This document shows positions 1,076-19,701 of a stretch of 20,881 nt of DNA, one piece after another. The first letter of the stretch is position 1; every line of letters begins with the position of its first letter. The DNA comes from a virus: positions 1 to 20,881 of IMG/VR virus record IMGVR_UViG_3300026097_000130. One strand, 5' to 3'. The notes beneath the pieces were generated by a model. That model was not told where the DNA came from. It ran no database searches and worked only from the letters and a program-made list of their open reading frames with translations. A program made the position numbers and the translations under genes.

Positions 1076-1082
1076 CATTTTT

Positions 1083-1780: not shown

Positions 1781-1809
1781 ATTATAACAAGAGTTGTGGA
1801 GGGTGTCAA
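1781..1809 (-). promoter_or_regulatory. Consensus sigma-70 promoter (TTGACA-17-TATAAT)
   Basis: On the minus strand a perfect -35 box, TTGACA (1809-1804), is followed after exactly 17 bases by a perfect -10 box, TATAAT (1786-1781). A TG one base before the -10 adds an extended -10. Transcription would start near 1774, just ahead of the AGGAG box of the DUF3310-like gene. The TGA inside TTGACA is the stop codon of the upstream gp13-like gene, so the promoter overlaps coding sequence. It looks like a promoter for the unmodified host RNA polymerase. Confidence 0.88.
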
Positions 1810-2564
1810 CCGATGGTGAAGCCGTATCCTACGCCGCCCGGCACTTGTGTCTTGACTTCTTCTTCCAGCTTGTCCATTTCGGCTTGTGCTTCTGCTTTGA
1901 GCGCATCACCGTTAAGTGTGCTTCCGCCCTGAGGACCCGCTATAGTTGCAAACTTGCTGCGTGCTTCGCCCAGCATGTATTTGCAACTGGCGAGCGTGTA
2001 ATCCTTAAGCCACTGATTGGCAAGATAGTCACTGATAAGCTCTGAATCCGGACGGTAGTTGTACACATACATCATCAGCGTTTCCTCTGTTCTAGGACGC
2101 TGAAGCAGTGTGAGTTTTTTGGTTGTGCTGTTCCACTTGAACTCAATAAAGCTTCCAAACATTCTGCCTACCAGTTCTTGGTATTGTGAGAACATATCGT
2201 AAGTTGCAATGCCACCTAGATTTGAGCTTGATAACAGATAGGTGTTTGTGTATGCTAGGTTAAAGGGTTCGAAGATGCTTCCGCCGTCTCCTCCGCCTGT
2301 GCGTGATCCCACACTTCTGCGAAACAATTGACGCACTTCCATTACTTCTTTGGGCAAGGTATATTCGTTTTGATCCTCTACCGTGGGCATAAACATATAG
2401 CTTTCTTCCACGGCATTGTCGCTTCTCTGTCTAAACCGTGTCAGTGCTTTGGTTAGTGCTGTTTCGTAGTGTATAGGATCAAGCTCTACATCCACCATAC
2501 CGCCGCCTAGGAATGTGTTTACATAATCGAATATTTCTTGCTTTTGGGTAACTAAATCGCTCAT
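1806..2564 (-). CDS. Neck protein, gp13-like
   Basis: This 252-residue virion protein belongs to a family conserved in T4-like phages. In T4, gp13 and gp14 form the neck that closes the filled head and receives the tail. Visible family hallmarks are FRQRSDNAVEESYMFM near residues 43-58, a VMEVRQLFRRSVG segment near residues 80-92, FNLAYTNTYLLSSSNLGG near 102-119, GRMFGSFIEFKWN near 132-144, and a charged, probably helical C-terminus ending in YGFTIG. The length is somewhat shorter than T4 gp13 (about 310). The ATG at 2564 has a GGAG box 6 bases upstream. It is transcribed away from the gp14-like gene, which in T4 follows gene 13 on the same strand. Structural-protein status is firm; the gp13 equivalence is likely but not proven. 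Confidence 0.78.
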   Translation of the reverse strand: MSDLVTQKQEIFDYVNTFLGGGMVDVELDPIHYETALTKALTRFRQRSDNAVEESYMFMPTVEDQNEYTLPKEVMEVRQLFRRSVGSRTGGGDGGSIFEPFNLAYTNTYLLSSSNLGGIATYDMFSQYQELVGRMFGSFIEFKWNSTTKKLTLLQRPRTEETLMMYVYNYRPDSELISDYLANQWLKDYTLASCKYMLGEARSKFATIAGPQGGSTLNGDALKAEAQAEMDKLEEEVKTQVPGGVGYGFTIG

Positions 2565-2623: not shown

Positions 2624-3787
2624 GCTATTCCTCGTCTTAGTTTATACAAGCCCGAACGCGGTAACGATTACGAATTTCTAGACAAGCAAATCGAAGAGAT
2701 GTTTGTGGTAGGTGGTACCGAAATCAATATTCACAAATATCTAGGAAGCAACAATCTATCCGACGATGAAGCTGATGCAGTACAACCACAATACGATGCT
2801 GTGAAAGAAACCAATATTCAAGACTTGCTGTTCCTTGAAAACAGAGACAGAAAGTATGATCCGGATATCTATAAAACCCGCGCCATTTACAACGTGCAAG
2901 ATATAGATTTTGACCTGAGTGCGTTTGGATTGTTCTTGAGCAATGACACGCTGTTTATGACTGTGCACATTCGCAACATTGTGAAAACACTGGGCAGAAA
3001 ACCTCTCAGCGGTGATGTCATAGAACTTCCGCATTTGAAGGACGAATATGCCCTTAATGATTATTCAGTGGCACTAAAGCGTTTCTACGTGATAGAAGAT
3101 GTAAACCGTGCCTCAGAAGGATTCAGCCATACTTGGTATCCGCATCTTTACAGGCTGAAACTGAAACAGATTTACGACGGACAAGAATTCAAAGAAATAC
3201 TGGACTTGCCAGCCGAAGAAGAAAATCCAGGCGGAGACACGCTGAGAGATTTGCTGTCAGTGTACGACAAAGAAATGCAAATCAATGATGCTGTTATCAA
3301 ACAGGGCGAAGCTGAAGCACCCCTCAGCGGATACGAAACAAACCATTTCTACACCGTGACTAGAACAGAAGACGGGCAGGTAGATTTGCGTCCTGCCACG
3401 GATACCGAAGTTGACAGCACAGGTGTAAACACTTCAGAAGTTGTTCCTCCTGCAAGACAGGGTTACACGGGCTATCTGCTCAATTACGGTGACGGTGAAG
3501 CACCCAATGGGGCGGCGTTTGGAAGTGGCATACAGTTTCCACTGGACAACGAACGGGGTGATTATTTCATGCGCACTGACTTTTTGCCCAACAGGCTGTT
3601 TAGATATGACGGCGAGCGTTGGATTAAGGTAGAGGATTCTCTCAGAGAAACACTCACCAATAACAACACCAGAAGCACGCAGAAAGCAGGCTTTATCAAC
3701 AACACCGCTACAAACAGCATAGGCGGTGAGACGGTACCAGAAAGACAAGCTCTAAGCAAAGCTCTTAGACCCAAGGCGGATAATTAA
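2621..3787 (+). CDS. Neck protein, gp14-like (start codon degenerate)
   Basis: This is a T4 gp14-type head-completion/neck protein. From ACG at 2621 it has 388 residues; from the first ATG (2699) it has 362. I prefer the long form because the 26 extra codons (AIPRLSLYKPERGND...) match the conserved N-terminus of the family as I recall it, and there is no ATG, GTG or TTG between. The core follows gp14: NIQDLLFLENRDRKYDPDIY, then FGLFLSNDTLFMTVHIRN, GRKPLSGDVIELPHL, YVIEDVNRASEGFSHTWYPH and RLKLKQIYDGQEF. The C-terminal extension, with GDYFMRTDFLPNRLFRYDG and a terminal ERQALSKALRPKADN, is typical of marine T4-like phages and absent from T4 gp14 (256 residues). The stop codon overlaps the gp15-like start as TAATG. 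If translation really begins at 2699, the protein lacks its conserved N-terminal segment. Confidence 0.85.
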   Translation, partial: TAIPRLSLYKPERGNDYEFLDKQIEEMFVVGGTEINIHKYLGSNNLSDDEADAVQPQYDAVKETNIQDLLFLENRDRKYDPDIYKTRAIYNVQDIDFDLSAFGLFLSNDTLFMTVHIRNIVKTLGRKPLSGDVIELPHLKDEYALNDYSVALKRFYVIEDVNRASEGFSHTWYPHLYRLKLKQIYDGQEFKEILDLPAEEENPGGDTLRDLLSVYDKEMQINDAVIKQGEAEAPLSGYETNHFYTVTRTEDGQVDLRPATDTEVDSTGVNTSEVVPPARQGYTGYLLNYGDGEAPNGAAFGSGIQFPLDNERGDYFMRTDFLPNRLFRYDGERWIKVEDSLRETLTNNNTRSTQKAGFINNTATNSIGGETVPERQALSKALRPKADN

Positions 3788-5208
3788 TGGAATTTTTTTA
3801 CGACGGGCAAATACGCAGATATGTCACGCAGTTAATGAGACTGCTCAGTAACTTTCCTGTGAGATACGGTGATGGCTCCGTCAAAGCTATTCCGGTAGTG
3901 TACGGTGATATTACACGTCAGGTTGCAAACATTATTCGTGACAACTCAGAAAACAAACTGCCCAGCGCACCTAGAATGGCTGTGTATCTCACAGGACTGG
4001 AGCAGGACAGAGATCGCACACAAGATGCCACGTTCATCAACAAGCTGAACATCAAAGAACGTGCTTACGACGAAGATGGTGAAGAGTATCTTAATGTTCA
4101 AGGTAAGAATTATACTGTAGAAAGATTGATGCCAACACCTTATTTGCTTAAGGCAAACGTTGACATATGGACGTCTAATACCGATCAAAAGCTTCAGGTA
4201 ATTGAGCAGATAGGTGTATGGTTTAATCCAACTCTGGAGCTGCAAACAACAGATAATTTTGTGGATTGGACCAGCATTACCACACTGGAATTGGAAAACA
4301 TAAACTGGAGCAACAGAACTATTCCCGTAGGCGTGGACTCAGAAATAGATGTTGCTACATTGAGCTTCAACATTCCTATATACATATCTCCGCCCGCAAA
4401 AGTCAAGAAGCTGGGCGTTATCACAAACATTATTACCAGTATGTTCAATGAAGACATTGGTGACATAGAAACTGGTGTTTCTAGACCCATAACAAACGCA
4501 TACGATGATGCAATATCTCCAGGTGTAACAGAAAATCAATTTGGTAGAAAGTCTGTGACAGAAAGCACAGACCAAATGGCGAACGTAAACTACCTCAATT
4601 ATGGAGCGTACATAGACGGCACAACTGCACAAATTATACACAGAGGTGCAGTGGGCAGTGTTAACTGGAGAGACGTTCTAGAAAGCCTGCCAGGACAGTA
4701 TATTGCGGATATCAGCAGAATATTTTTAGAAAACAAAGATTCAGATGCTGTGGTTACAGGTTCAATCAGTCTTAATCCACTAGATGAAAGCAAGCTCAGC
4801 ATAAACTGGGATTCAGACAGCTTTCCTCAGGACAGCATTATATCAGGTCCTACAGGTGACAAAACCACAATCGACTATATTATTGATCCTCAAAAATTCA
4901 ATCCTACCACAGTAAAGCAGGCAGGCACACGACTGTTGTTGTTGGATGATGTTGGCAACGAACTTGCCACAGAAGGAGCCGCCGCTTGGAAAAACACGGA
5001 CGGTACACGCTTTGTTGCAAGTGCAAATGATATTGTAGAATGGGACGGTGCACAGTGGCACATTGTGTTTGACAGCAGTGAAACTTCTGCAGTGACATAT
5101 GTTACCAATTTGAATACCAGTGTGCAATACCGTTATGCGGACGGTGACTGGCTGTTGAGCATAGACGGCGAGTATCCAGTTGGCACCTGGCGCATCAGCT
5201 TAGATTAA
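3787..5208 (+). CDS. Tail sheath stabilizer / completion protein, gp15-like
   Basis: In T4, gp15 caps the tail tube and sheath and joins the tail to the neck. The first 230 or so residues match that family: FFYDGQIRRYVTQLMRLLSN at the N-terminus (T4 has YFYNSSFRRY...), then MAVYLTGLEQDRDR, a YTVERLMPTPYLLKANVDIW segment, QVIEQIGVWFNPTLEL and a closing SFNIPIYISPPAKVKKLG strand. The whole protein is 473 residues, against about 272 in T4. Residues about 235-473 form an extension containing two tryptophan-centred segments (IVEWDGAQWHIVF and RYADGDWLLSIDGEYPVGTW). The ATG shares its A with the gp14 stop codon (TAATG), implying translational coupling. A weak AAGGCGG precedes it. Confidence 0.88.
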   Translation: MEFFYDGQIRRYVTQLMRLLSNFPVRYGDGSVKAIPVVYGDITRQVANIIRDNSENKLPSAPRMAVYLTGLEQDRDRTQDATFINKLNIKERAYDEDGEEYLNVQGKNYTVERLMPTPYLLKANVDIWTSNTDQKLQVIEQIGVWFNPTLELQTTDNFVDWTSITTLELENINWSNRTIPVGVDSEIDVATLSFNIPIYISPPAKVKKLGVITNIITSMFNEDIGDIETGVSRPITNAYDDAISPGVTENQFGRKSVTESTDQMANVNYLNYGAYIDGTTAQIIHRGAVGSVNWRDVLESLPGQYIADISRIFLENKDSDAVVTGSISLNPLDESKLSINWDSDSFPQDSIISGPTGDKTTIDYIIDPQKFNPTTVKQAGTRLLLLDDVGNELATEGAAAWKNTDGTRFVASANDIVEWDGAQWHIVFDSSETSAVTYVTNLNTSVQYRYADGDWLLSIDGEYPVGTWRISLD

Positions 5209-5218
5209 TAATTACTGT

Positions 5219-5653
5219 ATGAGCGAGCTAATTGTGTGCAGTGGCGCACTGTTTTATACCCTTGATACTAGGCGATTTCTAATGCTGTATAGAAAAAACG
5301 GCAAGCGCAGTAACCAATGGGGACTTGTGGGCGGTACTAACAAAGAGTCAGAAACTCCCTGGGAAGGGCTTCAAAGAGAAATCACAGAAGAAATAGGCGA
5401 GCTTCCTGAGATTGTGAAAACAATTCCTTTAGAAACATTTATTTCCAGCGATGAAAAGTTTCAATTTCACACTTATCTCTGTCTTATTGGAGAAGAATTT
5501 ATTCCTTTGCTAAACTCAGAACACGACGGATATGCCTGGGTAGGGATGAATAATTGGCCTAAGCCTTTGCATCAGGGTTTGCGCAATACTCTCAATGCAA
5601 AGACTAACAAAATAAAGCTGGCAACCATAGAAGAAATGGCTGATTTATTTTAG
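5219..5653 (+). CDS. Nudix hydrolase
   Basis: Nudix enzymes hydrolyse nucleoside diphosphates linked to another moiety, using divalent metal bound by glutamates of the Nudix box. The 144-residue protein has a complete box: G39-x5-E45-x7-R53-E54-x2-E57-E58-x-G60, with E54, E57 and E58 as likely metal ligands. The only deviation is E61 where a bulky hydrophobic residue is usual, with L62 next. Length and fold pattern (beta strand, GLVGGT loop, box helix, later YAWVGMNNWPKPLHQGLRNT) fit a single-domain Nudix protein. The substrate cannot be read from the sequence. It starts 10 bases after the gp15-like gene without a clear ribosome binding site, so it probably depends on readthrough or coupling. 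It is the only evident metabolic enzyme in this structural block. Confidence 0.93.
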   Translation: MSELIVCSGALFYTLDTRRFLMLYRKNGKRSNQWGLVGGTNKESETPWEGLQREITEEIGELPEIVKTIPLETFISSDEKFQFHTYLCLIGEEFIPLLNSEHDGYAWVGMNNWPKPLHQGLRNTLNAKTNKIKLATIEEMADLF

Positions 5654-5655
5654 AC

Positions 5656-8600
5656 CTAGTCAGTTCTTCTCCAAAGAGTTAGAGTTTCTACATCAACAGT
5701 TGTTGATAACAATGTTAATGATCCAGTAGAAGAATTCCTAGTATCAGTAATTGAACCCATATTTTCCCAAGTGTTTATGACATCAGGAGGATTACCGTCC
5801 GTTGTTATGTCATATGTTCCTTTCTTGGTTTCATGAATTCTCTGCCTAATATACTGTGCAATTGCATTTATATCAGCAGATGCATACAGAGTGATTGTGT
5901 CATTTTCTAATTTTACAGGTTGCGGATAAGTCCCTTTGTCTTCCTGGGCCACCTTGCGCAATAATTTATAGTTGTTTTGTGTTTGATCTAAGGTGTTTGT
6001 TATCTGCTGTGCAGTATAGGACGTAATATTGTTTAGATCCCAAGTCCAATTCGTTCTGCTGTTAAATTCTTGAGTTTGAAAGAAAGGATCAGATGTCGAA
6101 AAGCTAGGATTGCCAGTATCTCCTTCGTTAAACACCAAGTAAATCGACGATGTATCGGCAAAATCATATAGTTCTCCCTTCCAAACATGTTCTTTTGATC
6201 CATTTGCAAATTCCTGTACTCCTCTGGCACTTGCCGTTTTCATACTTTGGTATGGAGAATTAAAATCAGGAAAATATGTCGGAGCCGAATTATTAGTAAT
6301 ATTTCCACTAGAGTCTATATTAAATTTTATATATCCATGACGCTCGTTTAATCCGTATGCACGAACAGCAACTGATACGACAAATTCTACTTCTGTATTT
6401 TCAAAATATAACGAATCGTTTACCTCATAACTTGCGCCGGTTGAACCGACGGGCACAGATTGACTGTCTACTACTGCTGTATCTATTAAAGTCAACGTGT
6501 TTGTTATAAGATTTATATCATAGGTCCTTACAGTGACTCCTATAGGCGTATCTTGGAAATTTGTTATCTCTTGTACTGATACAAGAATATTTTGGTCGAT
6601 CCACATAGTATGTTTAGTACCTGATCCTGAGTTTGGATCGTCTACATCTACAAAATTACCAACCTGAACAGTACCCACAAAATCGGTACCATCTGAATTA
6701 AAGTCTACGTTTGATATATCTTCGGTTGGATCACTTCCTATCCTAAATGTATCGCCGATATCTGCCACAGTTTCCCAGGTACCGGGTCCTGGAGATTCAT
6801 TAAATTCTACAAGTTTATATGTGTTAGGTCCAGGACTTGATGTTCCGGCACCTAGCATTAGTTCTATTGCAATATCTGCAATGTCTTCAAATAATGATCT
6901 TCCTGTAGAGCTAGGCTGTAGTGATACTTCTGAGCCGTTCACTGAATATTCAAGCAGATCCGGAGGGGTGCTAGGCAAGGCAGTGTACTCTTCTTGATCT
7001 ACAAAATAAAACGGAGTTGAACTTTCTATGACAGCTTGTTCTGTCACAGGATCAAAATCAGTATCTTCGAATGTATCAAGCAGAGTATTTGTGACACCAG
7101 CATCGTCGGTTACTTCTAAATTTCCAGTTTGTTGATTTTGGGTTGCTAGATGCTCTAGCACGTCATAGGCTAAATTGTTTATTTCTGCAGGTGTCATTGG
7201 ACGAATTGCAAAGGCGCCTTCTACTAGATTATATTGATATATGTCTCGGCCTTCACTGAAGTAAATTATTTTTCTTGAAAAGTCAATATCAAAGAATTTG
7301 TTCCTTGTAGTCTGAGTCACTTCGCTTGGAATATCTATTACTTCGTTGTTGTATTCTGCACTTGATAAATCAAATGGTATAGATAACACATATTGATAAA
7401 ATTTCAAATCAGTTGAATCAGCCAAGTATAATCTGTTTCCTACCGCATTCATTAGCATGGAAGTTGCGTTGATTCCGAGCGGAGTACCAAACTGATCAAC
7501 TCGTAAATCACTGTAATTCAGTATTTTTGACAACACTGCTGTTTGGATTTGGTATGGTACTGATAAAGTGTATGCATATACTTGCTGATCAAGTGTGTCA
7601 TTATTCAGTATGAACATTAAACTGCCAGTGTCGTTAAACTGGATATCAAATGGAGCGGGATTGGTTGTAACTAATGACAAATCAAATGATGCTACGAATG
7701 TAGCTGTGCTAACATCATTTGCAGAGGATAGCGCATATTGGTGAACTTGGTTAGATGCAGTGCCGACTACAAACATCAGTGAGCCGGACGGATCAAATTC
7801 AAGACTGGTCGGCGCAGTTTCCTGACTGCTAACATCGAAGGTTTTGTCGGTTGCAATTGCAGTTGATATATCAAAAGCAGTTCCGAGCTCTAGTTGGACT
7901 ATGCTGATCGAATTTTCGTCAATAATATTAACATGTTTTCCAGTACTATCTAGTCTAAATCCAAAGGAAGTAGCAAACCCGTTGTAGAGTTCAACAGTGC
8001 TGTTATTATATGCTATTTTTGAGCTAGTGTCTTGTAGATCTGTTTGACAAATAGTGTTAGATGAAGCTGTTAGCGACCTAAGATAAAATAATTTACTCTG
8101 ATTTGAGTTCACAACAATATCGTAAATAGTTTTATTATCTGACTCAGTATACATATTAATTTTATACAAATTTGCTGTTTCTATCTCAAAAGGTTGATTT
8201 AAAGGAATTCCTGCAATTCCTCTATTGAAATGTACATATAACATTGTGCCAGATTCATTGAAATCAATTGAATTTGGTTTAAGGATTAGGGGATCTAAAT
8301 CTGGTAAAGTGATGGATGCGTCTGAATCCCCTCTATTTTGTACGTCATATGGTGACGGTAAATTATATTGAGAAACCCTTGCTTCAAATTCACCGGTGAA
8401 AAAATTGTAGTTGCCTATATATAATTTTGTACCGTCGTTGTTAAATTTGAAACTTGCCCAAGCCACAGGTGACGTGGTTGTAAATATAGTACTTGTATTC
8501 ATATCTGTTGTTGATGAAATATCATAGGCAGAAGAAAGTGTAAGAGTATAAATGAATGCAGACCCAAATTCGATGCCTTCTAATACAAATAATTTAGTTC

Positions 8601-11600
8601 CGTCTGCAGAGAATTCCATATCGAACAGTCCTGAGGTAGAGGTATTCGAGCTAATTTTATATGTTTCTCCGGTGTACCTTGCTGTGTCAATATCAAATGG
8701 TGTGACTAAATCGTAAGCATAAATGTCTTTTCCCGTAGTCTTTGTATCTGCTACGTAAAGTTTAGTACCATCCGGTTTTAATGTAAGTGTAAAAGCGCTG
8801 TTGTCGCCAGTAAATAAGTAAACAGGGTCAGTAAAGTCTAAACTCCAATCAGGAGATTTGTATTGATAAACTTCATTACCGTCAGCAACATAAAAATCAT
8901 TGTTGAAAAAAGTAAGGCCTCTTGGTATATTTGTATTTTCAGTGCGCCCGTACGGTATACCGACCTCTACCATGGTTGTGATATCATATGCAGGATTAAG
9001 AGCAAATCTATGTATAAGCTCTGAAGTTGAGTCAAAATAGTAAAGCTCGGTTCCTGATGCGTTAAACTGAATATCAGCAGGATTGGTAGTAATTCCTAAC
9101 GCCCCAAGATCTACGTTAATACCGCTATAAATTGCACTTGATATATCGTATCCATTAGATAACTCATACTGATATATTGTATCCGAGGAACCGTCTAAGA
9201 TAAACATTTTTGTTCCGGTATTATTGAATAACACAGCTACCGGAAGTGTTCCTGGTGTAATATTAAAAATTACTCCAGTTTCTGATGCCGTGGATATATC
9301 ATAGGCAGTTGTCAAAGTTAGTTCATAAAGTCTGTCATTAGTAATATATGAGCCTACTATTAACTTTGTGCCGTCTGAGTTCCATGACATAAATTTAGGA
9401 GTGAAACTTAGGCTAAACTGCTTACTGGCTGTTAAGGCAGTTGTGATATCTGCCGGAGTACTAAGTGTATATTGATCTATGGTGTCATTAACATCATTAA
9501 TTGCAATCATTTCGCTACCAGTGCTGTTAAATAAAACTTTGTCTGTGCTTATATCCGACCATACATTAAAAACTGCTTCATCGTACGAAGGATATATCTG
9601 TGAGCTTATATCATACGTTTCAATTATATCATAGATATCATGTCCTCCGATCACAAAGTTTCCTGTGATTGTTACAGTGTTAGCATATGTTCTAATTATA
9701 GTACCCTCACCTGCATTTCTTTGAGGTCTTACTTGTTCTGTCCAAGTAGAACCACTTCTTGTGAACACATTTATTATATCATCATACCCGATTACTACGG
9801 TATCACCTGATATTGCAATTGAATCAATGCCTGAAAGCGGTGCACCATCCGCCTCCGGAAGTTCGGCTTGTGGAGTCCACGATTCACCTCCGTCATCTGT
9901 TACAAATACTGTAGCAACAGAAGAACCAACTACTATTGTATTTCCGCTTATTGCCGGGTGAGCAGTTGTTCCGGTTGGAGGTTGTAGCTGTTGTTGAAGC
10001 GTCCATGTAATACCGTTATCTGATGTAGTATATACGTTGCCCGAGTCGCTTACTATGATGTTATTATCTATAGCAATATCACTCCCCCCACCTGCTTCTA
10101 TTATTTGGCGTTCAGTCCAAGTAGTCCCTGATCTGGTGAATACATAAAACCTACCTGTATTTGTGCTAACTACCAAAGTATCGCCAGATAACGCTACTCC
10201 CGAGCCAAATCCATTAGAATCAGGATCTGTCAAGTCACTTGGTATTAAACGAGTTTGAAAATTCCACGACGCACCTCCGTCTGAGGAAGTCTGAATTTGA
10301 ACTGCTCCTTTGTAGGCATCTTGATTTCCGCTGTTATCCCACCCGGGCTCTCCTGCAACTATTGTGTCGCCTGATATTGCTACCGAAGTTCCCGTGAAGG
10401 TCTCACGGGAAGTACCAATAAATTTGTCGGTGTAGGTCCAAGTAGAATTTATGTTTTGAAAAATATAGACTGCTCCGGACTGGATTGAAATAGCAAACTC
10501 TTCAGGAGCGCCGACCACTAATGTGTTACCGTCTGCTGCAAGTGCTTGGCCAAAAGTGTTCGCATTAGGATCGAAATCCAGGCCGTAAATGCTTTGTTTG
10601 ACAATCAAGGAATACGGAGCTGGCAATGTATACTGATATGTGGTATGAGTGTTTTTGCCAAGAAGGTACATTTTAGTGCCATCGTTGTTGAAGTTTACAT
10701 CTACTGCAACATCTTCATCAAATCCATACTCAAGAAAATTACCAGTAGTTCGAATATCACCGGGCGTAGATAGATCGAAATAGTATATAGCACTTGCTCT
10801 AACACCGTGACGATCAGATCCAAGTACAAATAATCTGCTAGCGTCTGGGTTCAAAGCTATTGATCTTAGATTAGTAAAATTGCTAAAATCTGCAAAGTAG
10901 TTATTGTCATTAACTGAACCTAATGAATAATTACTTGTGGCGAATTGATAAACTGTATCAGTGTTACCTCCAACTATAAATAATCTAGTTCCGAATCGAG
11001 CGAATTTTGCATGTTTAGGATCGGAATCTTTGAGGCTAAAGTTATATGATAACCCATCATAGGATGGGTTGGACAAATCATATGGTGTGCTTAAACTAAA
11101 CTGAAACAGTACGTCATTGTTATACATGTATATCTTGGTGCCGTCGCCATTAAATTCGAACGCATCAATGCCCGAACCTCCATAGATTGTGGTACCAATT
11201 TTGCCATCCCAAACTACAAAGTCATAGGATGCGGTGGTTATATCGTAAGGAGTTGTTAAGCTATATTGATAGATGCCTGTAGGGTGTTGAAATGACGAAG
11301 CAAACATCTTAGTGCCGTCGTTAGAAAATCTAAGGCAGTTCGGGAGTTCGGCTTGTCCCTTTAAATCTGGAGACACAGAACCATCATAATAAATGCTAGA
11401 AAAATTTCTAGTGCTTTCAATTTCAGCTGGTAATATTTCCTTTAAAGTTATTACATTAACAGTATCACCGGGATCTTTAAATAAAAGAGATTTTACACGA
11501 TAGTTGCCATCTGTAGGATCTGGTTCAACTGGTACATAAGATCTTCCTTGTAACTGAGCACTTGATACTATAAAGGGCGACGATAAAGAATATCTGTATA

Positions 11601-14600
11601 TTCTAGGAATATTGCTAAGTAATTGGTTATCCAAAACATATAGTTCTGTTCCAGTGGGGTTAAATTCAAAATAACTCGAATTCGAAATATCTGGGAGATC
11701 GTAGACTGTGTTATATGTTACATCGAGTAAATCTGGATAAGTATCATTTGCTGTGAATATATAGGTTGCGCCGGCGTCGGTACCGCCTTGATCGTCTCCG
11801 GTGGCACCAACTGCCACAGTATCACCACTTATTGCTACTCCTCCTCCAAAACTAGCGTCCGAACTGGCATCACTAGCGACGAGTTTTTGATCTTCAGACC
11901 ACGTAGATCCCGTTCTAGTAAATACATAAGCAGCACCTGCATTGGCAATGCCGGGGTCTTCAAGAAATGCGCCGACGATAGCACGGTCACCTGATACAGC
12001 AACTGATTGGCCAAAACGATCGCTTCCTTGTCCATCACTAGCAACGAGTTTTTGTTGTTGGGTCCAAGTGGCACCTCCATCGGATGTAGTAAATATATAA
12101 ACTGAGCCAGGGCCAGTGAAGTTAACTCCACCGCTGCCGTCGTACGGTGAACCGACTATTACAGTATTTCCATCTATTGCTAAATTGCCGCCGAAGTAAT
12201 CGCCTGACTCTGCATCACTAGCGACAAGTTTTTGTTGTTCAGTCCACGTGGATCCCGATCTAGTAAATACATAAGCAGCACCTGCATCAGTGCCGCCTTG
12301 ATCGTCTCCGTATGCGCTAATAATAGCTATATCCCCATCTATTGCCACTGGCAGCCCAAAGAAATCGTTTATTTGACCATCACTGGCGACAAGTTTTTGT
12401 TGTTCAGTCCACGTAGATCCCGATCTAGTAAATACATAAGCAGCACCTGCATCTGAGGCAACTTGGTCGTCTCCGTATGCACCAACTACCACAGTATCAC
12501 CACTTATTGAAACCGATTGGCCAAAATATTTGTCTGGAGATGCATCACTAGCGACGAGTTTTTGTTGTTGGGTCCAAGTAGCACCTCCATCGGATGTAGT
12601 AAATACATAAGCAGCACCTGCAGAGGTGCCACCCGCATCCTCACCGGGGGCTCCGAATATCACAGTATCGCCACTTATTGCTACACTAAAACCACCGCGA
12701 TCGTCTTGTTGACCATCACTGGCGACAAGTTTTTGTTGTTCAGTCCACGTGGATCCCGATTTAGTAAATACATAGGCGGCACCTGCAGAGGTGGTCCCGT
12801 CGCCTCCACCTACTACCAAAATATCTCCATCTATTGCCACTGGCGTACCAACTCTATCGTTGGCGGCAACATCACTGGGTAGGAGTTTCTGTTGTTCTAC
12901 CCAGGGTGTAAATCCGTATTCATATATTTTGCCTAGATTTGCACCTACAAAAAGTTTTGAACCAGTTGTGTTAAAGCAAATACTGTTTGCCGCTGTAGTC
13001 TGAGCTGTAACATTTAAAAGTTTATTGTTGTATGTTGCTGTGCTTAGATCAAATCCTGTGCTAAGATCAATTTGATATATTCTATCATTATTCGCTAGTA
13101 AAAACATTTTTTCACCAGTTGAATTAAAAATAATTCCTAGATTATCTGATTCAGGTGCATCGTAACTAATACCACTGTAAATCGCTGTAGACAAATCGTA
13201 GGCTGTTGATAGGTTGTATTCATATACATCAGCTGAAGTTAATACAAACAGCTTAGTCCCGTCATTATTAAAAACAGTATCTATGAATTGACTCGTAGGT
13301 AACGTGACAGGCCGTGTTGTAAGAGTTCCGTTTATTTCTTCTATCTTTCCTACTTCCGGAATTAAATCATATTCATAAATATCCTCATCTTTTGATAAAA
13401 CAAACAATTTAGTACCATCGCTATTCACTTCAAACTCTTGTATATCATAGTCGACTATTATTCCGCCACCCGGTGCAGCGGTATTGATATTTGTTTCGAA
13501 TGGTGTATCTAAATAAACTGGCGTAATAGAATTTTCCCTACTATTTAAAGTGTAAAGTTTTGAGCCTGAGCTTGTTACTGCAAACCCTCTAGGCGGGTAT
13601 GTCGGAGAAGATAATATGCTATAATCATAATTTTCGAGTGATGAAAAATTCAGATAATATACCCGCATACTGTTACTTGCGGTAGCAAGTATCTTAGTAA
13701 AATTCCGATCAAACGAAAAATTATCTACATCTATGCCAGGTGCATAGGTTATATCGTCCGAATTTGCAGTAACACTGAAAGGCGCAATTGTGCTTGCCTG
13801 AAACCAAGTATTTGTAAAGTCTTCAAGCACATAAATCTTAGATCCTGAGCGATTAAATTGAAAACTGTCAAAGTTTATATTCTCTCCGGTCATAGGATTG
13901 CCACTAACATTATTATAAACTGCTGTGCTTAAATTATTAGGAACCGATAAATCATATTCATAAAGCAAACGAGAAGGAGCGTCGCTCAGGAACCACAACT
14001 TATCACCAGTTTCTGAGAATCTAAATGCTGCGGGATCTGTGGACTGAGAACTTACGTCTAGGACTGCGGAGTGAATTTTAGCAGAGTTTATATCAAAGTT
14101 TGTTTCAAGAGGATATACTTGATAATTACCTTCCGATGAAACGATCAAGCTGTTGCCGGTTCCGCTAAGATTTACGCCAGAAATATCGGTTGTATTGTTA
14201 AAATTGACCTGTATTTCTTTGCTTGCGGATGCTGTTGATATATCGTAAGCAGTTCCTAGATCGTATTGGTATATTCTGTCGGTAGTATCTCCTGCAAAAT
14301 ATGCTTGAGTTCCTGCAGAATTCATTGTGAATGATCTAATATTGCTGTCGCTCGAACTTAAATCCGGCGACGATATTAAGTAGTCATTTAGTGTACTCAA
14401 GTCAAATCCGGTTCCTAAAGTAAACTGGTGAACTTTATCAGTTTCGTTGCCCGCTACATAGAGTTTAGTTCCGCTATCTAAAAACTCCATACCAATCGGG
14501 CTATTATCCTTGCCACCTACAAATAGAGCACCGTTCAAGGCATATTGAAAGATGCTGTCAGTACCTAACCCAGAAATATACATTTTAGAAAAGTTGTTGT

Positions 14601-17600
14601 TAAACGCTAGTGAAGTAGGGGACGAATCTTCACTGTTCACGGAGGTACTTATAAAATCATATTGTGCAGATGATAAATCAAATATGCTAGGCACAGTAAA
14701 TTGGTGCACACTATTCGAAAGATTATCTAAAACATAAAGTCTGTCCCCTGCGGAATTTATAACAAAATCAATTGGATTTAAAGTAACTCCTAAGTTATCC
14801 AAATCAACCGACTGAGAGGGGCTCGGTATTGCTGTTGCTGTGTCGAATGCAGTATCTAGAAGGTAATAATCAATGGCATTACGGGTAGTATCGCCTAAAT
14901 ACATTTTGGTTCCGTCTGATGTTAACTGAATCGAATCTGGTTTTACTATCAATAAATTACTATTTCGACCTATAAAAAACACATCACTGTTAACTTTTGA
15001 AGGAAAAATATCATAAGGATCATCTAAATCATACTGTAACAAAACATTGTGTTGGTTTCCTAGTGCGAACATTCTAGTACCATTATCGCTAAAATCAACA
15101 CTTACTGGACTACTATCTAGCCCAATACCAAAATTAGAGCTTTCAGTAGCAGTATTGATTTCATGAGCAGTGCCTAAATTGTATTCTATAACTTCGCCGC
15201 TGAAGGAATCGCCGCTAGCGCCATCCGTACAAGTTACAAACATAATTGTACCAGTATCGTTAAATGTAAGGTCACTAGTAAAACTTGAGTTTATTGATCG
15301 TGACTTGTTTGAATAGGTCGTTGTAGATAAATCAAACCCAGATGAAAGATTATATTGATAAACTGTATCAGCTGTGGATGAAAGAACCATAGCCCTTGTA
15401 CCAGAATTTGTAAGCTTGATCCCTACAGGCGACGACATTTCGTTACCTACATAGAAACCGCCTCGAAGGTCATAAGTTTCAATGGTTCCATTACTGCGTC
15501 CTAATATTAAAGTTGTGTTGTCGTCGCTTACATCGATGGTTTCTCCTCCTGTTTTAGAGATTCGAACACCGTCATACGAAGCCGATGTTATATTAGAGTT
15601 CGACAAACTGAATTGATAGACTCCGTATGTAAAACTGCTCTGATCGCTGTAAATATATAAATAATCTGTGTTAGGAGTTACATAGATATCTCTTATTTCA
15701 ACACTGCTATTACCAGGTATTGACGGAGTATAACTTTCTTCATAATTGTTTTGGTCTAATTGATCGATTAGATATGGTGTAGATAGAGAATATTGATGTA
15801 TTTGATCTTCTCTTGAAACATACAATTTCGAACCATTGTCGCCAAACTCAAAACCAACTGAATCGTTTCCAATATCAAACGGAAATTGCACTCTGTCAAC
15901 TAACCCTGCTGGAATTGCAGAATCATTTATGACAGTTGCGTCATTAGCAGCATTACTGACCCAAGAAAACCCGTTATCGTTGTCGTGCCAAGTAAAACCG
16001 TAAGATTTCGATAGCCTCATATTTTCTGCGTAAAGAGCTGTGTAAGTAACAAAATTACCTGTCAATGTGTTAAGATCAAAAGGAGTAGATAATTTGTATG
16101 AAAATACTTGTCCGGTTTCTGAATCAATTGCGTATAGCTCAGTTCCTGAAGGATTAAAGTCAAATCCAAAAAAATCACCTGCATTTGAAGGACCAATTAG
16201 TCCATTATCGCGCAGTGTTATAACAGGTAAATATTCTGCTCCAGCTACATTAAATGAACTAACTCCATCATATTCTGCTGGTCCTTGGCTTGAATTAAAG
16301 GTAAAAAATCTGTCACCATTAGGGTGCCAATGAAACCCCCAAACCCGGTTAGTAATACGGCTTTTGATACTGCTGTTGTTTAAACTTGCAGTTGTGAGGT
16401 TATAAGGAGTACTAAGATTATAAGTTATAAAGTCGTTCTCTCTTACAATGGTAAGTTTTGAACCATTAGGACTTATATCTATGGCTGAAATGTCTATAGA
16501 AGTCGGACTAAATTGTGATTGGACGGCTCCGGCAGTTGTAGCATCGTAGGCTGTGCTAAGATTATATTGAACAATTCTATTTAAATTATTATCACTTATA
16601 AATAATTTTGTTCCTGAATCCCCAAAACACATGCCGCCCGGATCTTGATATCCATGATAAAATGCATTTCCTGTATAAGATATGGTAGTTGCATCGTATG
16701 CAGTGCTAACACTGTATTCGTAAATACGCAACAATCGTTCTTCCAAAGCATATAATTTTGTTCCGTTATTATTCCACACAGCAGATCTAAAGTCAAAAAA
16801 CAGTGTGCTGTTCCATTGTAGGTCTCCCTCACCGTCATACGTTCCGGTTGACAGATCGTATGCAGCTCCCAAAGAAAATTGTTTTATTTTCATTCCCTGT
16901 AACACATATATCTTAGTACCGTTGTTGTTGAAAGTTATGTCACTTTTGTAATAAGTGCCTGACAAGTTGGTTAATCCATCGGGTAAAGTTTTAGTCTTCA
17001 GTGTGTTTATGTCAAACCCAGAACTTAACGACATTTCAAGGACTCTGCTATCCGCGCTGGCATTATTTAAGGTAAAAAGTTTTGTTCCATTTGTGTTAAA
17101 CTGGAAACCAGTAGTAGTGAAGGTAGGCAGAGACACTTCTTTAGAATGATTGGTACTATTTACACCGGTTATATCATATGCGGGCGACAAATTATGTTCT
17201 CTTATTTCGTCGCGACCGCTAGAATTAATAACAGTAAACAGCTTAGTGCCATCTGAATTGAATGCAAAATCTGTTGTGGATGGATCTAAGCTTCCAGATT
17301 GAGATATTTTTGTAGGATTGGAATCAAACGCTACCTGCCTATATGGTGTATCTGTGCTAAAAGTATATATACGCATTGCAACGCCATTGGCTAAAAGATT
17401 AAATTTGTTTCCGTTATCTCGCCATCTAATCGCTCTTGTTTGCAAATAATCGAGATTTTGATACTCTGTGCCAGCGGAGCTGGCACTACCTGATGCAACC
17501 CTGTTATCTGGTTTCAGGTGGTTCAAAGACGCAGTAGATATATCAAATGCAGTTCCTAAATCAAAATCTAAGATTTGCTCAAATCTGTCATCAAGTACAT

Positions 17601-19701
17601 ACAGTTTTGTTCCGTTTTGATTAAACAATAAATCATGCGGTATCAGTGCTCCAGGAGCACTGAGTACTAAACTATTGTGCGCCGATTCTACATCCAAAGA
17701 TTTGTTATCGTAAGTAGCAGTTGAGATGTCGTATGGAGTGCTTAAACTATATTGATATATAGTAGAATCGTCAGGGTCTTCATTTACTACGTAAAGTTTG
17801 TTGCCATTATTGCCAAAAACAACTGCGCTTATTTTAGTATCAAGAGTGCTAGGCATTTGCGAAGCTACGGAAAATGTTCTTGACGAGTCCAACTCTGCGT
17901 CAGCAAGCCCTACAACTGGTACTTTTTCAAATGTAGCGGTGCTAATATTAAATGCAGTGCTTAAAGTGTATTGATAAATCCTGTTATTTGCAACCATGAA
18001 CATTTTGGTTCCGTCGGGTTTAAAATCAAAACCTTGTGCTATTGCTTGATTCGAAAAATCAAAAGATATGCCATCGTACGACAATGTCGAAGGATCATTC
18101 GCAGATGCAAGGCTATACTGATAAAGTTGTCCAGAACCAGAATCTAGGGCATAGAGTTTTGTTCCGTTATTTTCTATTCTAACAGCACCGGTATTAGATA
18201 TTTCATCAAATATAAATGTGCTGGATACTGCTGTGGTTATATCATAAGGTGTTGTTAATGTAAATTGATGGACAGCTCTATTAGTAAGAACATAAAATTT
18301 TGTACCGTTATCACTTATTGCAATAGATTCTGCAGAATCTAACAAATTATCAAATGTAAATGTCTTTTCATAAGTGGCTGTTGTTAAATCATACGCTGTG
18401 CCTAATCCGTATTGGTCCACTCTGTTAGCATAATCTAGGACATACAGTTTGGTTCCGTTTGAACTAAACTTTTTATTTTTCGGATTAGGAGATTGACTGG
18501 ATATATTTAAGCTTACACTGTCGTAAGATGCTTCAGATACACTGTTTGGCAATATTTCTGTATAAACTGCTGTTGATATATCGTAAGCTGGATTCAAAGT
18601 ATATGAGTAAATTTTAGCAGTCTGGCTGCCTAACAGATACATTTCAGTTCCGTTAGCATTGAAGTTGACAGAGCGAACTGTTGCATCTTGGTTACTAAAG
18701 TCAAAACTCTTGCTGTCATATGTAGCAGAGTCTGGAGCAAAATTTGTAGCTAATGAAAATTGGTGTATTGTAGTTGTTGCAAGATCTATAGTGTACATTT
18801 TAGATCCACTATCATTAAAAAACAGATTTTCAGGACTTCCTTGCAGGTATGTTTCTTTTGTGCCTATGCTGAGAATATCGTACGGAGTATTCAGATCAAA
18901 CTGATAAATTATTCCGGCTGTTCCGCCAAGCATGTATATTGATGTTCCGTCGTATGATAGAGTGATATGCTCAATATTAGTGTCTGCACAACTAAACTGT
19001 GAGAGTAACAACTCAACTGTGTCTGTTACAGTTCTTAAATCATACGAAGTACCAAGTGACAATTGCGAAATTTTTTCATTAGTTGCAACAAAAACTTTTG
19101 TTCCGTCTGGAGAAAATTCAGCAGATTTTGTATTACTAAAACTTAGGGTGTTATTTGTAGAAGTTCCAGGAAAAGTATCACTTGTAGCAGCAAAATTAAA
19201 GCCGGCTTCTGCATCATATTTTGCAATTCGTAGTGTATAAGAATTAATCTCTTCTTGAAGCAGAACATTGCTGTCATTGTTGTGTTGTCTGTATACTGAC
19301 TTTATAGGCTTATCACTGTTTATAGCTACAAACTCAAAAGAAGCTGTTGTTAAATCATATGCTGTGGTTAAATTATATTTTTTTAGCTCTTGGTTTACTC
19401 CAACGTATAAAATTGATCCATTATCTATAAAATCAAAGCCTCCTACTTCAGCATTAAGATCTCCTGAAACCGAAAGGGTTATATTGTCCTGGACAATGGA
19501 AGATATATCATATGCTGTGGTTACTGAGAATTGATGGATATTCTTATCTTCTTGTGAAAGTACGAATAATTTTGTTCCATCATTATTAAACCTGAAGGAT
19601 ATTGGGCTGTTTACAAAACTGCCTACATCTGCTGACTTATTTGCTGTAATAATCTCTGGTGTAAGATCCGTGTCATAACATAAAATATTTGAAATTGTCA
19701 T
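5656..19701 (-). CDS. Giant multi-beta-propeller virion/adhesion protein
   Basis: This is one uninterrupted frame of 4,681 codons, roughly 0.5 MDa. A short leader (residues 1-35, no signal peptide or membrane segment) is followed by about 65 blades of 40-65 residues. Their core, F.(N/S)(D/N)GTK(L/M)(Y/F)VL...(I/V)YQY.L(S/T)T.YDI.TA, resembles YVTN/lactonase-like beta-propellers. Two blocks of seven FG-GAP_2 repeats, some carrying Asp-boxes, interrupt the array. The last 520 or so residues are non-repetitive and look like a phage structural module. The protein is very poor in cysteine (seven noticed) and rich in N, D, S and T. The start overlaps the upstream fibre-like stop codon as TAATG, with a weak GGGG six bases upstream. 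The TAG stop faces the Nudix stop across 2 bases. Position and domain types suggest a virion-attached receptor- or glycan-binding fibre. That role is inference; I recognise no enzyme active site. Confidence 0.9.
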   Translation of the reverse strand: MTISNILCYDTDLTPEIITANKSADVGSFVNSPISFRFNNDGTKLFVLSQEDKNIHQFSVTTAYDISSIVQDNITLSVSGDLNAEVGGFDFIDNGSILYVGVNQELKKYNLTTAYDLTTASFEFVAINSDKPIKSVYRQHNNDSNVLLQEEINSYTLRIAKYDAEAGFNFAATSDTFPGTSTNNTLSFSNTKSAEFSPDGTKVFVATNEKISQLSLGTSYDLRTVTDTVELLLSQFSCADTNIEHITLSYDGTSIYMLGGTAGIIYQFDLNTPYDILSIGTKETYLQGSPENLFFNDSGSKMYTIDLATTTIHQFSLATNFAPDSATYDSKSFDFSNQDATVRSVNFNANGTEMYLLGSQTAKIYSYTLNPAYDISTAVYTEILPNSVSEASYDSVSLNISSQSPNPKNKKFSSNGTKLYVLDYANRVDQYGLGTAYDLTTATYEKTFTFDNLLDSAESIAISDNGTKFYVLTNRAVHQFTLTTPYDITTAVSSTFIFDEISNTGAVRIENNGTKLYALDSGSGQLYQYSLASANDPSTLSYDGISFDFSNQAIAQGFDFKPDGTKMFMVANNRIYQYTLSTAFNISTATFEKVPVVGLADAELDSSRTFSVASQMPSTLDTKISAVVFGNNGNKLYVVNEDPDDSTIYQYSLSTPYDISTATYDNKSLDVESAHNSLVLSAPGALIPHDLLFNQNGTKLYVLDDRFEQILDFDLGTAFDISTASLNHLKPDNRVASGSASSAGTEYQNLDYLQTRAIRWRDNGNKFNLLANGVAMRIYTFSTDTPYRQVAFDSNPTKISQSGSLDPSTTDFAFNSDGTKLFTVINSSGRDEIREHNLSPAYDITGVNSTNHSKEVSLPTFTTTGFQFNTNGTKLFTLNNASADSRVLEMSLSSGFDINTLKTKTLPDGLTNLSGTYYKSDITFNNNGTKIYVLQGMKIKQFSLGAAYDLSTGTYDGEGDLQWNSTLFFDFRSAVWNNNGTKLYALEERLLRIYEYSVSTAYDATTISYTGNAFYHGYQDPGGMCFGDSGTKLFISDNNLNRIVQYNLSTAYDATTAGAVQSQFSPTSIDISAIDISPNGSKLTIVRENDFITYNLSTPYNLTTASLNNSSIKSRITNRVWGFHWHPNGDRFFTFNSSQGPAEYDGVSSFNVAGAEYLPVITLRDNGLIGPSNAGDFFGFDFNPSGTELYAIDSETGQVFSYKLSTPFDLNTLTGNFVTYTALYAENMRLSKSYGFTWHDNDNGFSWVSNAANDATVINDSAIPAGLVDRVQFPFDIGNDSVGFEFGDNGSKLYVSREDQIHQYSLSTPYLIDQLDQNNYEESYTPSIPGNSSVEIRDIYVTPNTDYLYIYSDQSSFTYGVYQFSLSNSNITSASYDGVRISKTGGETIDVSDDNTTLILGRSNGTIETYDLRGGFYVGNEMSSPVGIKLTNSGTRAMVLSSTADTVYQYNLSSGFDLSTTTYSNKSRSINSSFTSDLTFNDTGTIMFVTCTDGASGDSFSGEVIEYNLGTAHEINTATESSNFGIGLDSSPVSVDFSDNGTRMFALGNQHNVLLQYDLDDPYDIFPSKVNSDVFFIGRNSNLLIVKPDSIQLTSDGTKMYLGDTTRNAIDYYLLDTAFDTATAIPSPSQSVDLDNLGVTLNPIDFVINSAGDRLYVLDNLSNSVHQFTVPSIFDLSSAQYDFISTSVNSEDSSPTSLAFNNNFSKMYISGLGTDSIFQYALNGALFVGGKDNSPIGMEFLDSGTKLYVAGNETDKVHQFTLGTGFDLSTLNDYLISSPDLSSSDSNIRSFTMNSAGTQAYFAGDTTDRIYQYDLGTAYDISTASASKEIQVNFNNTTDISGVNLSGTGNSLIVSSEGNYQVYPLETNFDINSAKIHSAVLDVSSQSTDPAAFRFSETGDKLWFLSDAPSRLLYEYDLSVPNNLSTAVYNNVSGNPMTGENINFDSFQFNRSGSKIYVLEDFTNTWFQASTIAPFSVTANSDDITYAPGIDVDNFSFDRNFTKILATASNSMRVYYLNFSSLENYDYSILSSPTYPPRGFAVTSSGSKLYTLNSRENSITPVYLDTPFETNINTAAPGGGIIVDYDIQEFEVNSDGTKLFVLSKDEDIYEYDLIPEVGKIEEINGTLTTRPVTLPTSQFIDTVFNNDGTKLFVLTSADVYEYNLSTAYDLSTAIYSGISYDAPESDNLGIIFNSTGEKMFLLANNDRIYQIDLSTGFDLSTATYNNKLLNVTAQTTAANSICFNTTGSKLFVGANLGKIYEYGFTPWVEQQKLLPSDVAANDRVGTPVAIDGDILVVGGGDGTTSAGAAYVFTKSGSTWTEQQKLVASDGQQDDRGGFSVAISGDTVIFGAPGEDAGGTSAGAAYVFTTSDGGATWTQQQKLVASDASPDKYFGQSVSISGDTVVVGAYGDDQVASDAGAAYVFTRSGSTWTEQQKLVASDGQINDFFGLPVAIDGDIAIISAYGDDQGGTDAGAAYVFTRSGSTWTEQQKLVASDAESGDYFGGNLAIDGNTVIVGSPYDGSGGVNFTGPGSVYIFTTSDGGATWTQQQKLVASDGQGSDRFGQSVAVSGDRAIVGAFLEDPGIANAGAAYVFTRTGSTWSEDQKLVASDASSDASFGGGVAISGDTVAVGATGDDQGGTDAGATYIFTANDTYPDLLDVTYNTVYDLPDISNSSYFEFNPTGTELYVLDNQLLSNIPRIYRYSLSSPFIVSSAQLQGRSYVPVEPDPTDGNYRVKSLLFKDPGDTVNVITLKEILPAEIESTRNFSSIYYDGSVSPDLKGQAELPNCLRFSNDGTKMFASSFQHPTGIYQYSLTTPYDITTASYDFVVWDGKIGTTIYGGSGIDAFEFNGDGTKIYMYNNDVLFQFSLSTPYDLSNPSYDGLSYNFSLKDSDPKHAKFARFGTRLFIVGGNTDTVYQFATSNYSLGSVNDNNYFADFSNFTNLRSIALNPDASRLFVLGSDRHGVRASAIYYFDLSTPGDIRTTGNFLEYGFDEDVAVDVNFNNDGTKMYLLGKNTHTTYQYTLPAPYSLIVKQSIYGLDFDPNANTFGQALAADGNTLVVGAPEEFAISIQSGAVYIFQNINSTWTYTDKFIGTSRETFTGTSVAISGDTIVAGEPGWDNSGNQDAYKGAVQIQTSSDGGASWNFQTRLIPSDLTDPDSNGFGSGVALSGDTLVVSTNTGRFYVFTRSGTTWTERQIIEAGGGSDIAIDNNIIVSDSGNVYTTSDNGITWTLQQQLQPPTGTTAHPAISGNTIVVGSSVATVFVTDDGGESWTPQAELPEADGAPLSGIDSIAISGDTVVIGYDDIINVFTRSGSTWTEQVRPQRNAGEGTIIRTYANTVTITGNFVIGGHDIYDIIETYDISSQIYPSYDEAVFNVWSDISTDKVLFNSTGSEMIAINDVNDTIDQYTLSTPADITTALTASKQFSLSFTPKFMSWNSDGTKLIVGSYITNDRLYELTLTTAYDISTASETGVIFNITPGTLPVAVLFNNTGTKMFILDGSSDTIYQYELSNGYDISSAIYSGINVDLGALGITTNPADIQFNASGTELYYFDSTSELIHRFALNPAYDITTMVEVGIPYGRTENTNIPRGLTFFNNDFYVADGNEVYQYKSPDWSLDFTDPVYLFTGDNSAFTLTLKPDGTKLYVADTKTTGKDIYAYDLVTPFDIDTARYTGETYKISSNTSTSGLFDMEFSADGTKLFVLEGIEFGSAFIYTLTLSSAYDISSTTDMNTSTIFTTTSPVAWASFKFNNDGTKLYIGNYNFFTGEFEARVSQYNLPSPYDVQNRGDSDASITLPDLDPLILKPNSIDFNESGTMLYVHFNRGIAGIPLNQPFEIETANLYKINMYTESDNKTIYDIVVNSNQSKLFYLRSLTASSNTICQTDLQDTSSKIAYNNSTVELYNGFATSFGFRLDSTGKHVNIIDENSISIVQLELGTAFDISTAIATDKTFDVSSQETAPTSLEFDPSGSLMFVVGTASNQVHQYALSSANDVSTATFVASFDLSLVTTNPAPFDIQFNDTGSLMFILNNDTLDQQVYAYTLSVPYQIQTAVLSKILNYSDLRVDQFGTPLGINATSMLMNAVGNRLYLADSTDLKFYQYVLSIPFDLSSAEYNNEVIDIPSEVTQTTRNKFFDIDFSRKIIYFSEGRDIYQYNLVEGAFAIRPMTPAEINNLAYDVLEHLATQNQQTGNLEVTDDAGVTNTLLDTFEDTDFDPVTEQAVIESSTPFYFVDQEEYTALPSTPPDLLEYSVNGSEVSLQPSSTGRSLFEDIADIAIELMLGAGTSSPGPNTYKLVEFNESPGPGTWETVADIGDTFRIGSDPTEDISNVDFNSDGTDFVGTVQVGNFVDVDDPNSGSGTKHTMWIDQNILVSVQEITNFQDTPIGVTVRTYDINLITNTLTLIDTAVVDSQSVPVGSTGASYEVNDSLYFENTEVEFVVSVAVRAYGLNERHGYIKFNIDSSGNITNNSAPTYFPDFNSPYQSMKTASARGVQEFANGSKEHVWKGELYDFADTSSIYLVFNEGDTGNPSFSTSDPFFQTQEFNSRTNWTWDLNNITSYTAQQITNTLDQTQNNYKLLRKVAQEDKGTYPQPVKLENDTITLYASADINAIAQYIRQRIHETKKGTYDITTDGNPPDVINTWENMGSITDTRNSSTGSLTLLSTTVDVETLTLWRRTD
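5659..7215 (-). other. Non-repetitive C-terminal region of the giant protein
   Basis: This encodes residues about 4163-4681. It begins IRPMTPAEINNLAYDVLEHL, a helix of a type seen in modular structural proteins of T4-like marine phages (MT.aEI..L.yd.L). A related helix recurs as LFEDIADIAIELMLGAGTSS and again near the end as ADINAIAQYIRQRIHETKKG, suggesting three modules with intervening beta-rich segments. No propeller blades are visible. It is the best candidate for the part that attaches to the virion. Confidence 0.6.
7216..9540 (-). repeat. Propeller blade array 3 (about 15 blades)
   Basis: This encodes residues about 3388-4162. About 15 YVTN-like units run from VLFNSTGSEMIAIND to a final IIYFSEGRDIYQYNL. 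The last unit ends after its inner strands, which is compatible with strand exchange closing a ring with the incomplete strand contributed elsewhere. Confidence 0.75.
9600..10590 (-). repeat. FG-GAP_2/Asp-box block 2: seven diverged repeats
   Basis: This encodes residues about 3038-3368. The units are recognisable by (A)ISGDT(I/V)V.G and by the spaced WT/WN positions. Three carry Asp-boxes ((S/T)xDxGx(S/T)W): SSDGGASW, TSDNGITW and TDDGGESW. Several units are shortened to about 38-45 residues. They are more diverged than block 1, so the two blocks are not a recent copy of each other. Confidence 0.78.
10591..11673 (-). repeat. Propeller blade array 2 (seven blades)
   Basis: This encodes residues about 2677-3037, lying between the two FG-GAP blocks. 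Seven YVTN-like units are visible, beginning FEFNPTGTELYVLD and ending with MYLLGKNTHTTYQYTL. Seven units could form exactly one closed propeller. Confidence 0.75.
11750..12903 (-). repeat. FG-GAP_2 block 1: seven near-identical repeats
   Basis: This encodes residues about 2267-2650. Seven units of about 55 residues follow W(T/V/S)E(Q/D)QKL(V/L)(A/P)SD ... FG..VAISGDTVVVG..GDD ... AGAAYVF, the FG-GAP_2 pattern. Seven is the blade number of integrin-like FG-GAP propellers. No DxDxDG calcium loop is present. Two of the seven units end in TSDGGATW, an Asp-box; four of the others end in a short SGST- or TGST-type turn and the last differs. DNA repeats are close: stretches starting at 12217 and 12382, 165 bases apart, differ at 2 of about 72 positions. 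Confidence 0.88.
12904..19596 (-). repeat. Propeller blade array 1 (about 43 blades)
   Basis: This encodes residues about 36-2266 of the giant protein. By eye I count 43 units, each opening with an (F/V/I/L)xF-type strand and a (D/N/S)GTK turn and closing with YQY or HQF strands and YDI.TA. The units are strongly diverged, several have lost the GTK turn (for example around residues 150 and 1300-1380), and spacing varies from about 37 to 70 residues. This points to old duplications. Confidence 0.8.

Follow-up and report, generated by a model that had tools for sequence, protein, structure and literature searches.

Gene content of the window

The stretch of DNA analysed here (the window) is a 20.9-kb IMG/VR fragment of 20,881 nucleotides. 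The genes found in it are listed below by coordinates and strand, with the basis of each assignment.

2..1078, minus strand: tail sheath, N-terminal part, the gene running off the window (phrog_10581)
1806..2564, minus strand: homologue of the head-tail adaptor Ad2, a neck protein (homology)
2699..3787, plus strand: virion structural protein (phrog_11591)
3787..5208, plus strand: gp15-like tail sheath stabiliser, used as the anchor for finding relatives (homology)
5219..5653, plus strand: NUDIX hydrolase, convergent with the giant gene and bordering the swap site described below (homology)
5656..19701, minus strand: giant gene, 4681 aa (stop-free ORF, intact in contig G001)
19701..20881, minus strand: 3' end of the upstream tail-fibre gene, 2243 aa in G001 (phrog_677, tail-fibre connector)

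The giant gene starts with ATG and remains free of stops over 4681 codons, for a product of 4,681 aa, 510 kDa and pI 4.2; at the base composition of the window, the probability of a frame of this length being open by chance is about 10^-139. The same gene is found unbroken in another IMG/VR contig, IMGVR_UViG_3300007609_000014 (68.8 kb, hereafter G001), which shares 19,314 bases with the window, with 10 mismatches, all within the first ~135 bases of G001. Positions 5656-19701 are a real, single gene, as proposed in an earlier note on this DNA, which had described one intact 14-kb frame; no internal stop was found in either contig.

The major capsid protein gp23, encoded on G001, is 74% identical to that of Sinorhizobium phage Phosso and 68% identical to those of Pseudomonas PA5oct-like phages, and the gp15-like protein beside the giant gene shows about 35% identity to its Phosso and PA5oct relatives. 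By these matches the fragment derives from a T4-like jumbo phage, uncultured and belonging to the PA5oct/Phosso group, and the phage origin assumed earlier is supported by the gp15, gp23 and sheath homologues. The NUDIX gene and the structural gene adjoin the gp15-like gene in the same order as in the PA5oct group. Plasmid carriage was also considered and rejected, as no match was found.

The TAA stop of the upstream 2243-aa gene overlaps the ATG of the giant gene (TAATG), while only 2 bases separate the end of the latter from the convergent NUDIX gene. On G001 the transcription order, all on the same strand, is gp23, small fibre-like genes, the genes for proteins of 1497, 4253, 6200 and 2243 aa, with small genes interspersed among them, and the giant gene last. 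The 4253-, 6200- and 2243-aa proteins have PHROG matches to tail-fibre or virion structural proteins, and the 6,200-aa fibre-like protein carries an S74 intramolecular chaperone at its C-terminus. The tail-gene context is supported, the giant gene being the last of the G001 tail-fibre cluster. This tail-fibre set, in which the 6,200-aa S74 protein (G001 24866-43468, minus strand; loci L102 and L103) is accompanied by its 4,253- and 2,243-aa neighbours, is unusually large, with about 17,000 aa in four genes, the giant one included.

Repeat composition of the giant protein

The following segments were recognized along the protein, from the N-terminus to the C-terminus.

12907..19599, minus strand: block A, 43 YVTN-like blades, aa 35-2265 (blade HMM)
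11722..12906, minus strand: FG-GAP_2 array 1, seven units, aa 2266-2660, a predicted seven-bladed propeller (Pfam; AlphaFold2)
10600..11721, minus strand: block B, seven YVTN-like blades, one of them divergent, aa 2661-3034 (blade HMM; AlphaFold2)
9616..10599, minus strand: FG-GAP_2 array 2, seven units, more divergent, aa 3035-3362 (Pfam; sequence reading)
7213..9615, minus strand: block C, 15 YVTN-like blades, aa 3363-4163 (blade HMM, linker motif, AlphaFold2)
5659..7212, minus strand: C-terminal non-propeller region of about 518 aa, an orphan

An iterative blade HMM produced 63 matches in the giant protein; after inspection of the gaps and tabulation, the YVTN-like blades are 65 (43+7+15 in the three blocks, spanning aa 35-2265, 2676-3034 and 3387-4163), the divergent blades 3, 23, 26 and 45 having been assigned by eye from their spacing and not by the HMM. 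A blade HMM trained on other phages only still identified 61 domains, 50 of them scoring at least 10 bits, and no domain reached this score in 100 shuffles of the protein or in its reversed sequence. The Pfam family FG-GAP_2 (PF14312) was matched in 10 stretches, with E=2.6e-132 and 431 bits versus a gathering cut-off of 23. By sequence reading, its units form two arrays of exactly seven each, the ring number of the integrin-alpha type; calcium-binding loops of the DxDxDG type were absent from array 1 and represented by one loose match in array 2. HMM counts, Pfam and sequence reading thus agree with the figure of about 79 given earlier, the sum of about 65 YVTN-like blades and 14 FG-GAP_2 units. 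The accompanying description of the protein as made almost entirely of blades is nearly right, except for the last ~518 residues. Searches detected no relatives of this C-terminal region, which is possibly an attachment, trimerisation or tip domain. No known fibre-attachment domain was found in the 34 residues ahead of blade 1, and Pfam and PHROG searches returned no fibre PHROG or S74 match within the giant protein itself.

The mean identity among the YVTN-like blades of the window is 22%, which indicates that the array is either old or fast-evolving; a recent tandem duplication of blades was rejected on the same ground.

Number of blades per ring

A profile of single-ring relatives matches the YVTN surface-layer protein 1l0q (E=2.3e-12), and the blades of the window match the HMM of the same family. 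The blade family is homologous to YVTN propellers, and yet its relatives seem to close with five blades. Blades were counted in the complete ORFs of 73 viral contigs, retrieved by using a blade DNA pattern: 43 ORFs have 5 blades, 30 have 10-11, five have 15-16 and two have 20, the exceptions to the fives being 3-4 blades in 6 ORFs, 6 in 8 ORFs and 8 in a single one. The extra half unit of the 6- and 11-blade ORFs is an N-terminal strand region, which would serve for ring closure. Fives were also counted in gp51 of phage ICBM2 (5), gp42 of phage CRP-9 (5+5+5), a fibre of contig G009 (5) and the insert in gp53 of phage S-SCSM2R (5). In arrays whose blades are evenly spaced at 52 residues, about every fifth blade has lost the linker motif that lies between strands c and d. 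In block C the same motif, evaluated by eye, is weakest after blades 55, 60 and 65, that is the 5th, 10th and 15th of the block, which reads as three five-bladed rings.

Within the giant protein, no periodicity of 5 or 7 was apparent when blades were compared pairwise by lag, and position-specific ring models in a five-blade phase gave p=0.72 for block A and p=0.07 for block C, neither being significant. For block A, no clear ring partition emerged from lag similarity, position-specific models or the linker motif. Taken together, the 65 blades make a multiple of five, provided that FG-GAP_2 array 1 sits within a ring.

The ability to fold into propellers was analyzed by using AlphaFold2, with alignments composed largely of the giant protein's own repeats. 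FG-GAP_2 array 1 was predicted with high confidence (pLDDT mostly 65-95) and shows propeller strands; block B reached moderate confidence. In block C, blades 51-55 and about 60-64 were modelled confidently, the middle poorly, and blade 65 was left unfolded, which is a poor fit to a clean 5-5-5 division. Since the mean pLDDT of the models is 65 and 62, inter-ring geometry cannot be read from them. Compared with the PDB by Foldseek, the models match tandem propellers with E values of 1e-15 to 1e-20 and probability 1.00. Megalin/LRP2, DDB1, Pwp2 and 2ymu are likewise chains of closed propellers, but they are unrelated cellular proteins, with six to eight blades per ring, and resemble the giant protein in fold only. 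In BFVD, the block C model matches, among others, ICBM2 gp51 and two proteins of phage Atu_ph07, as well as a baseplate wedge subunit, which superposes at 2.0 A over 255 columns, a size of five blades. Models and Foldseek matches together support the propeller fold.

Because the blade family comes in fives among its relatives, about 15 propellers are likelier than 11, and the likely composition of the chain, with a presumed partition of block A, is 13 five-bladed and 2 seven-bladed propellers. The earlier note had assumed seven blades per ring, for about eleven propellers; on this count (79/7), blocks A and C would each have one blade to spare. This number holds for the FG-GAP_2 units, which form two sevens; block B also contains seven blades, and 1l0q, the one solved structure that the blade family matches in sequence, is an archaeal surface-layer YVTN protein with seven blades. 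For the YVTN-like blades, however, relatives of the same family count 5, 10, 15 or 20 and not 7 or 14, their linker motif is broken about every fifth blade, and the 15 blades of block C have their breaks at 55, 60 and 65, so that a chain of eleven seven-bladed propellers is unlikely.

The same blades in other phage proteins

Blades of this family are found together with fibre-like N-termini in several tail-fibre-like proteins (CRP-9 gp42, ICBM2 gp51 and those of G009, L152 and L131), where they often interrupt a fibre domain with PHROG tail-fibre matches. The proteins of Lentibacter phage ICBM2 and Roseobacter phage CRP-9, both annotated only as hypothetical, share with the giant protein the blade family, the repeat of about 52 aa and the tail-gene neighbourhood, but contain only one or three five-blade rings in 403-1241 aa, and have a fibre-like N-terminus. 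In Synechococcus phage S-SCSM2R (L193 4077-6419), five blades of the family are nested as a single ring in the conserved baseplate wedge protein gp53, which is enlarged to 780 aa by this five-bladed propeller. Among the phage proteins examined, a motif-based and not exhaustive sample, the largest number of YVTN-like blades after the 65 of the window is 20.

The window is not the only source of a giant multi-propeller phage protein, since the cultured phage Phosso, of the same jumbo group, encodes one of 3,692 aa (L085 12748-23826), annotated as hypothetical. Unlike the protein described here, it is built of many FG-GAP_2 units, with a glycine-rich stretch and C-terminal laminin-G-like domains, and is encoded away from the gp15 locus.

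Gene exchange beside gp15

The gp15 protein of a sister contig, G002, is 99% identical to that beside the giant gene. G002 and G001 are 95.3% identical over 3,277 bases, and the similarity ends at the stop codon of the giant gene. Past this boundary, G002 contains a small fibre-like gene together with one for a 2893-aa fibre, a relative of the 2243-aa protein; no propeller gene was found on this contig. In relatives with about 75% gp15 identity, the same place is taken by glycine-rich/Ig-like proteins of 2.0-2.6 kaa, some of which carry FG-GAP_2 units and/or about five C-terminal blades; one protein with such blades also has seven FG-GAP_2 matches. The giants of L008, L012 and L013 occupy the same position as the gene of the window, convergent to gp15/NUDIX. 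About five blades are present at the C-terminus of those of L008 and L012, the latter with FG-GAP_2 units in addition, but in all three the stalk is Ig-like and glycine-rich rather than made of propellers, and the N-terminus is unlike that of the window protein.

According to these comparisons, the giant gene is most likely traded as a whole, in the manner of a cassette, by close relatives, and we infer that the locus behaves as a host-range cassette. As the site, within a tail-fibre cluster, is filled by different giants in relatives, a swappable host-gripping appendage is the most likely product.

Possible function of the giant protein

The giant protein is probably carried on the virion of this jumbo T4-like phage as an adhesin; we infer its location, attachment end, oligomeric state and binding function. 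That it should be both virion-borne and swappable is most likely in view of the same blades being fused to tail-fibre domains and nested in gp53. It would be translated last in the tail-fibre operon and would fold into a chain of closed beta-propellers, 13 five-bladed and two seven-bladed of the FG-GAP_2 type, followed by the non-propeller C-terminal region. The chain would form a long appendage, whose variable propeller faces may bind glycans or proteins of the host surface before attachment becomes irreversible, and the whole gene would be traded between close relatives like other host-range determinants. The adhesion role put forward earlier is thus supported as the most economical reading of the tail-fibre cluster, the gene swap and the blade fusions. 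In a Sinorhizobium jumbo phage, proteins modelled on integrin and apoptosome were annotated as hemagglutinin and tail fibre (PMC11242549), and phage SU10 provides an example of a seven-bladed propeller serving as a core component of a tail nozzle (PMC9509320).

The product might instead form whisker-like hairs on the capsid or sheath, sticking non-specifically to polysaccharide or particles. Hairy whiskers are indeed seen on the head or tail of related jumbo phages of the same group, such as Atu_ph07 (PMC6102473). The latter phage encodes large propeller-like proteins, which the block C model matches, and no known fibre N-terminus is present in the giant chain. Nevertheless this main functional rival is improbable, as the gene closes a tail-fibre operon, at a site where fibre genes are exchanged for it, and blades of this family are also present in fibre proteins and in gp53. 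Much less probable still is a non-virion protein made during infection, for example one whose display or release changes the host surface or blocks competing phages: such a role would agree with the failure to find any known attachment domain in the giant protein, but not with its place in a structural operon, the overlap with a fibre gene and the fusion of blades of this family to proteins of the fibres and the baseplate.

The giant protein could also represent a new kind of appendage, in which the usual trimeric fibre shaft is replaced by a string of about 15 propellers, all closed, 13 with five blades and 2 with seven, built from a phage blade family that is nearly absent from the scanned cellular genomes and elsewhere serves as a single binding module. 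This reading is conceivable, though somewhat doubtful. The contrast with known fibres drawn in the earlier note has to be softened, because ordinary tail-fibre proteins and gp53 already make use of the blade family as a plug-in module. Should the reading as a propeller chain be correct, a long host-contacting phage appendage could be made from strung globular propellers, and not from three chains wound into a beta-helix, and one gene would offer many binding faces. In marine phages, the five-bladed family would then move among tail fibres, baseplate proteins and giant adhesins. Gene exchange between near-identical phages and the availability of cultured carriers (ICBM2, CRP-9, S-SCSM2R and Phosso) make the host-recognition role directly testable.

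Origin and spread of the blade family

In a scan of 84,980 cellular genomes, the consensus blade DNA pattern, present in the 73 viral contigs, did not occur once, and a more permissive scan, limited to short exact peptides, gave two cellular relatives, results which speak against an origin from a host gene. The two relatives, L191 and L192, belong to a Moraniibacteriota MAG and to Reichenbachiella faecimaris and resemble the single-ring protein; because of them, "mainly phage" is as far as the data allow the family to be described. No description of this blade family was found in the open-access literature on phage propellers, FG-GAP or YVTN repeats, and a five-bladed propeller family in marine phages is apparently undescribed so far. 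In L179, L145, L172, L127 and other loci, two to three consecutive genes each encode one or two five-blade rings, which suggests paralogous tip genes arranged in tandem.
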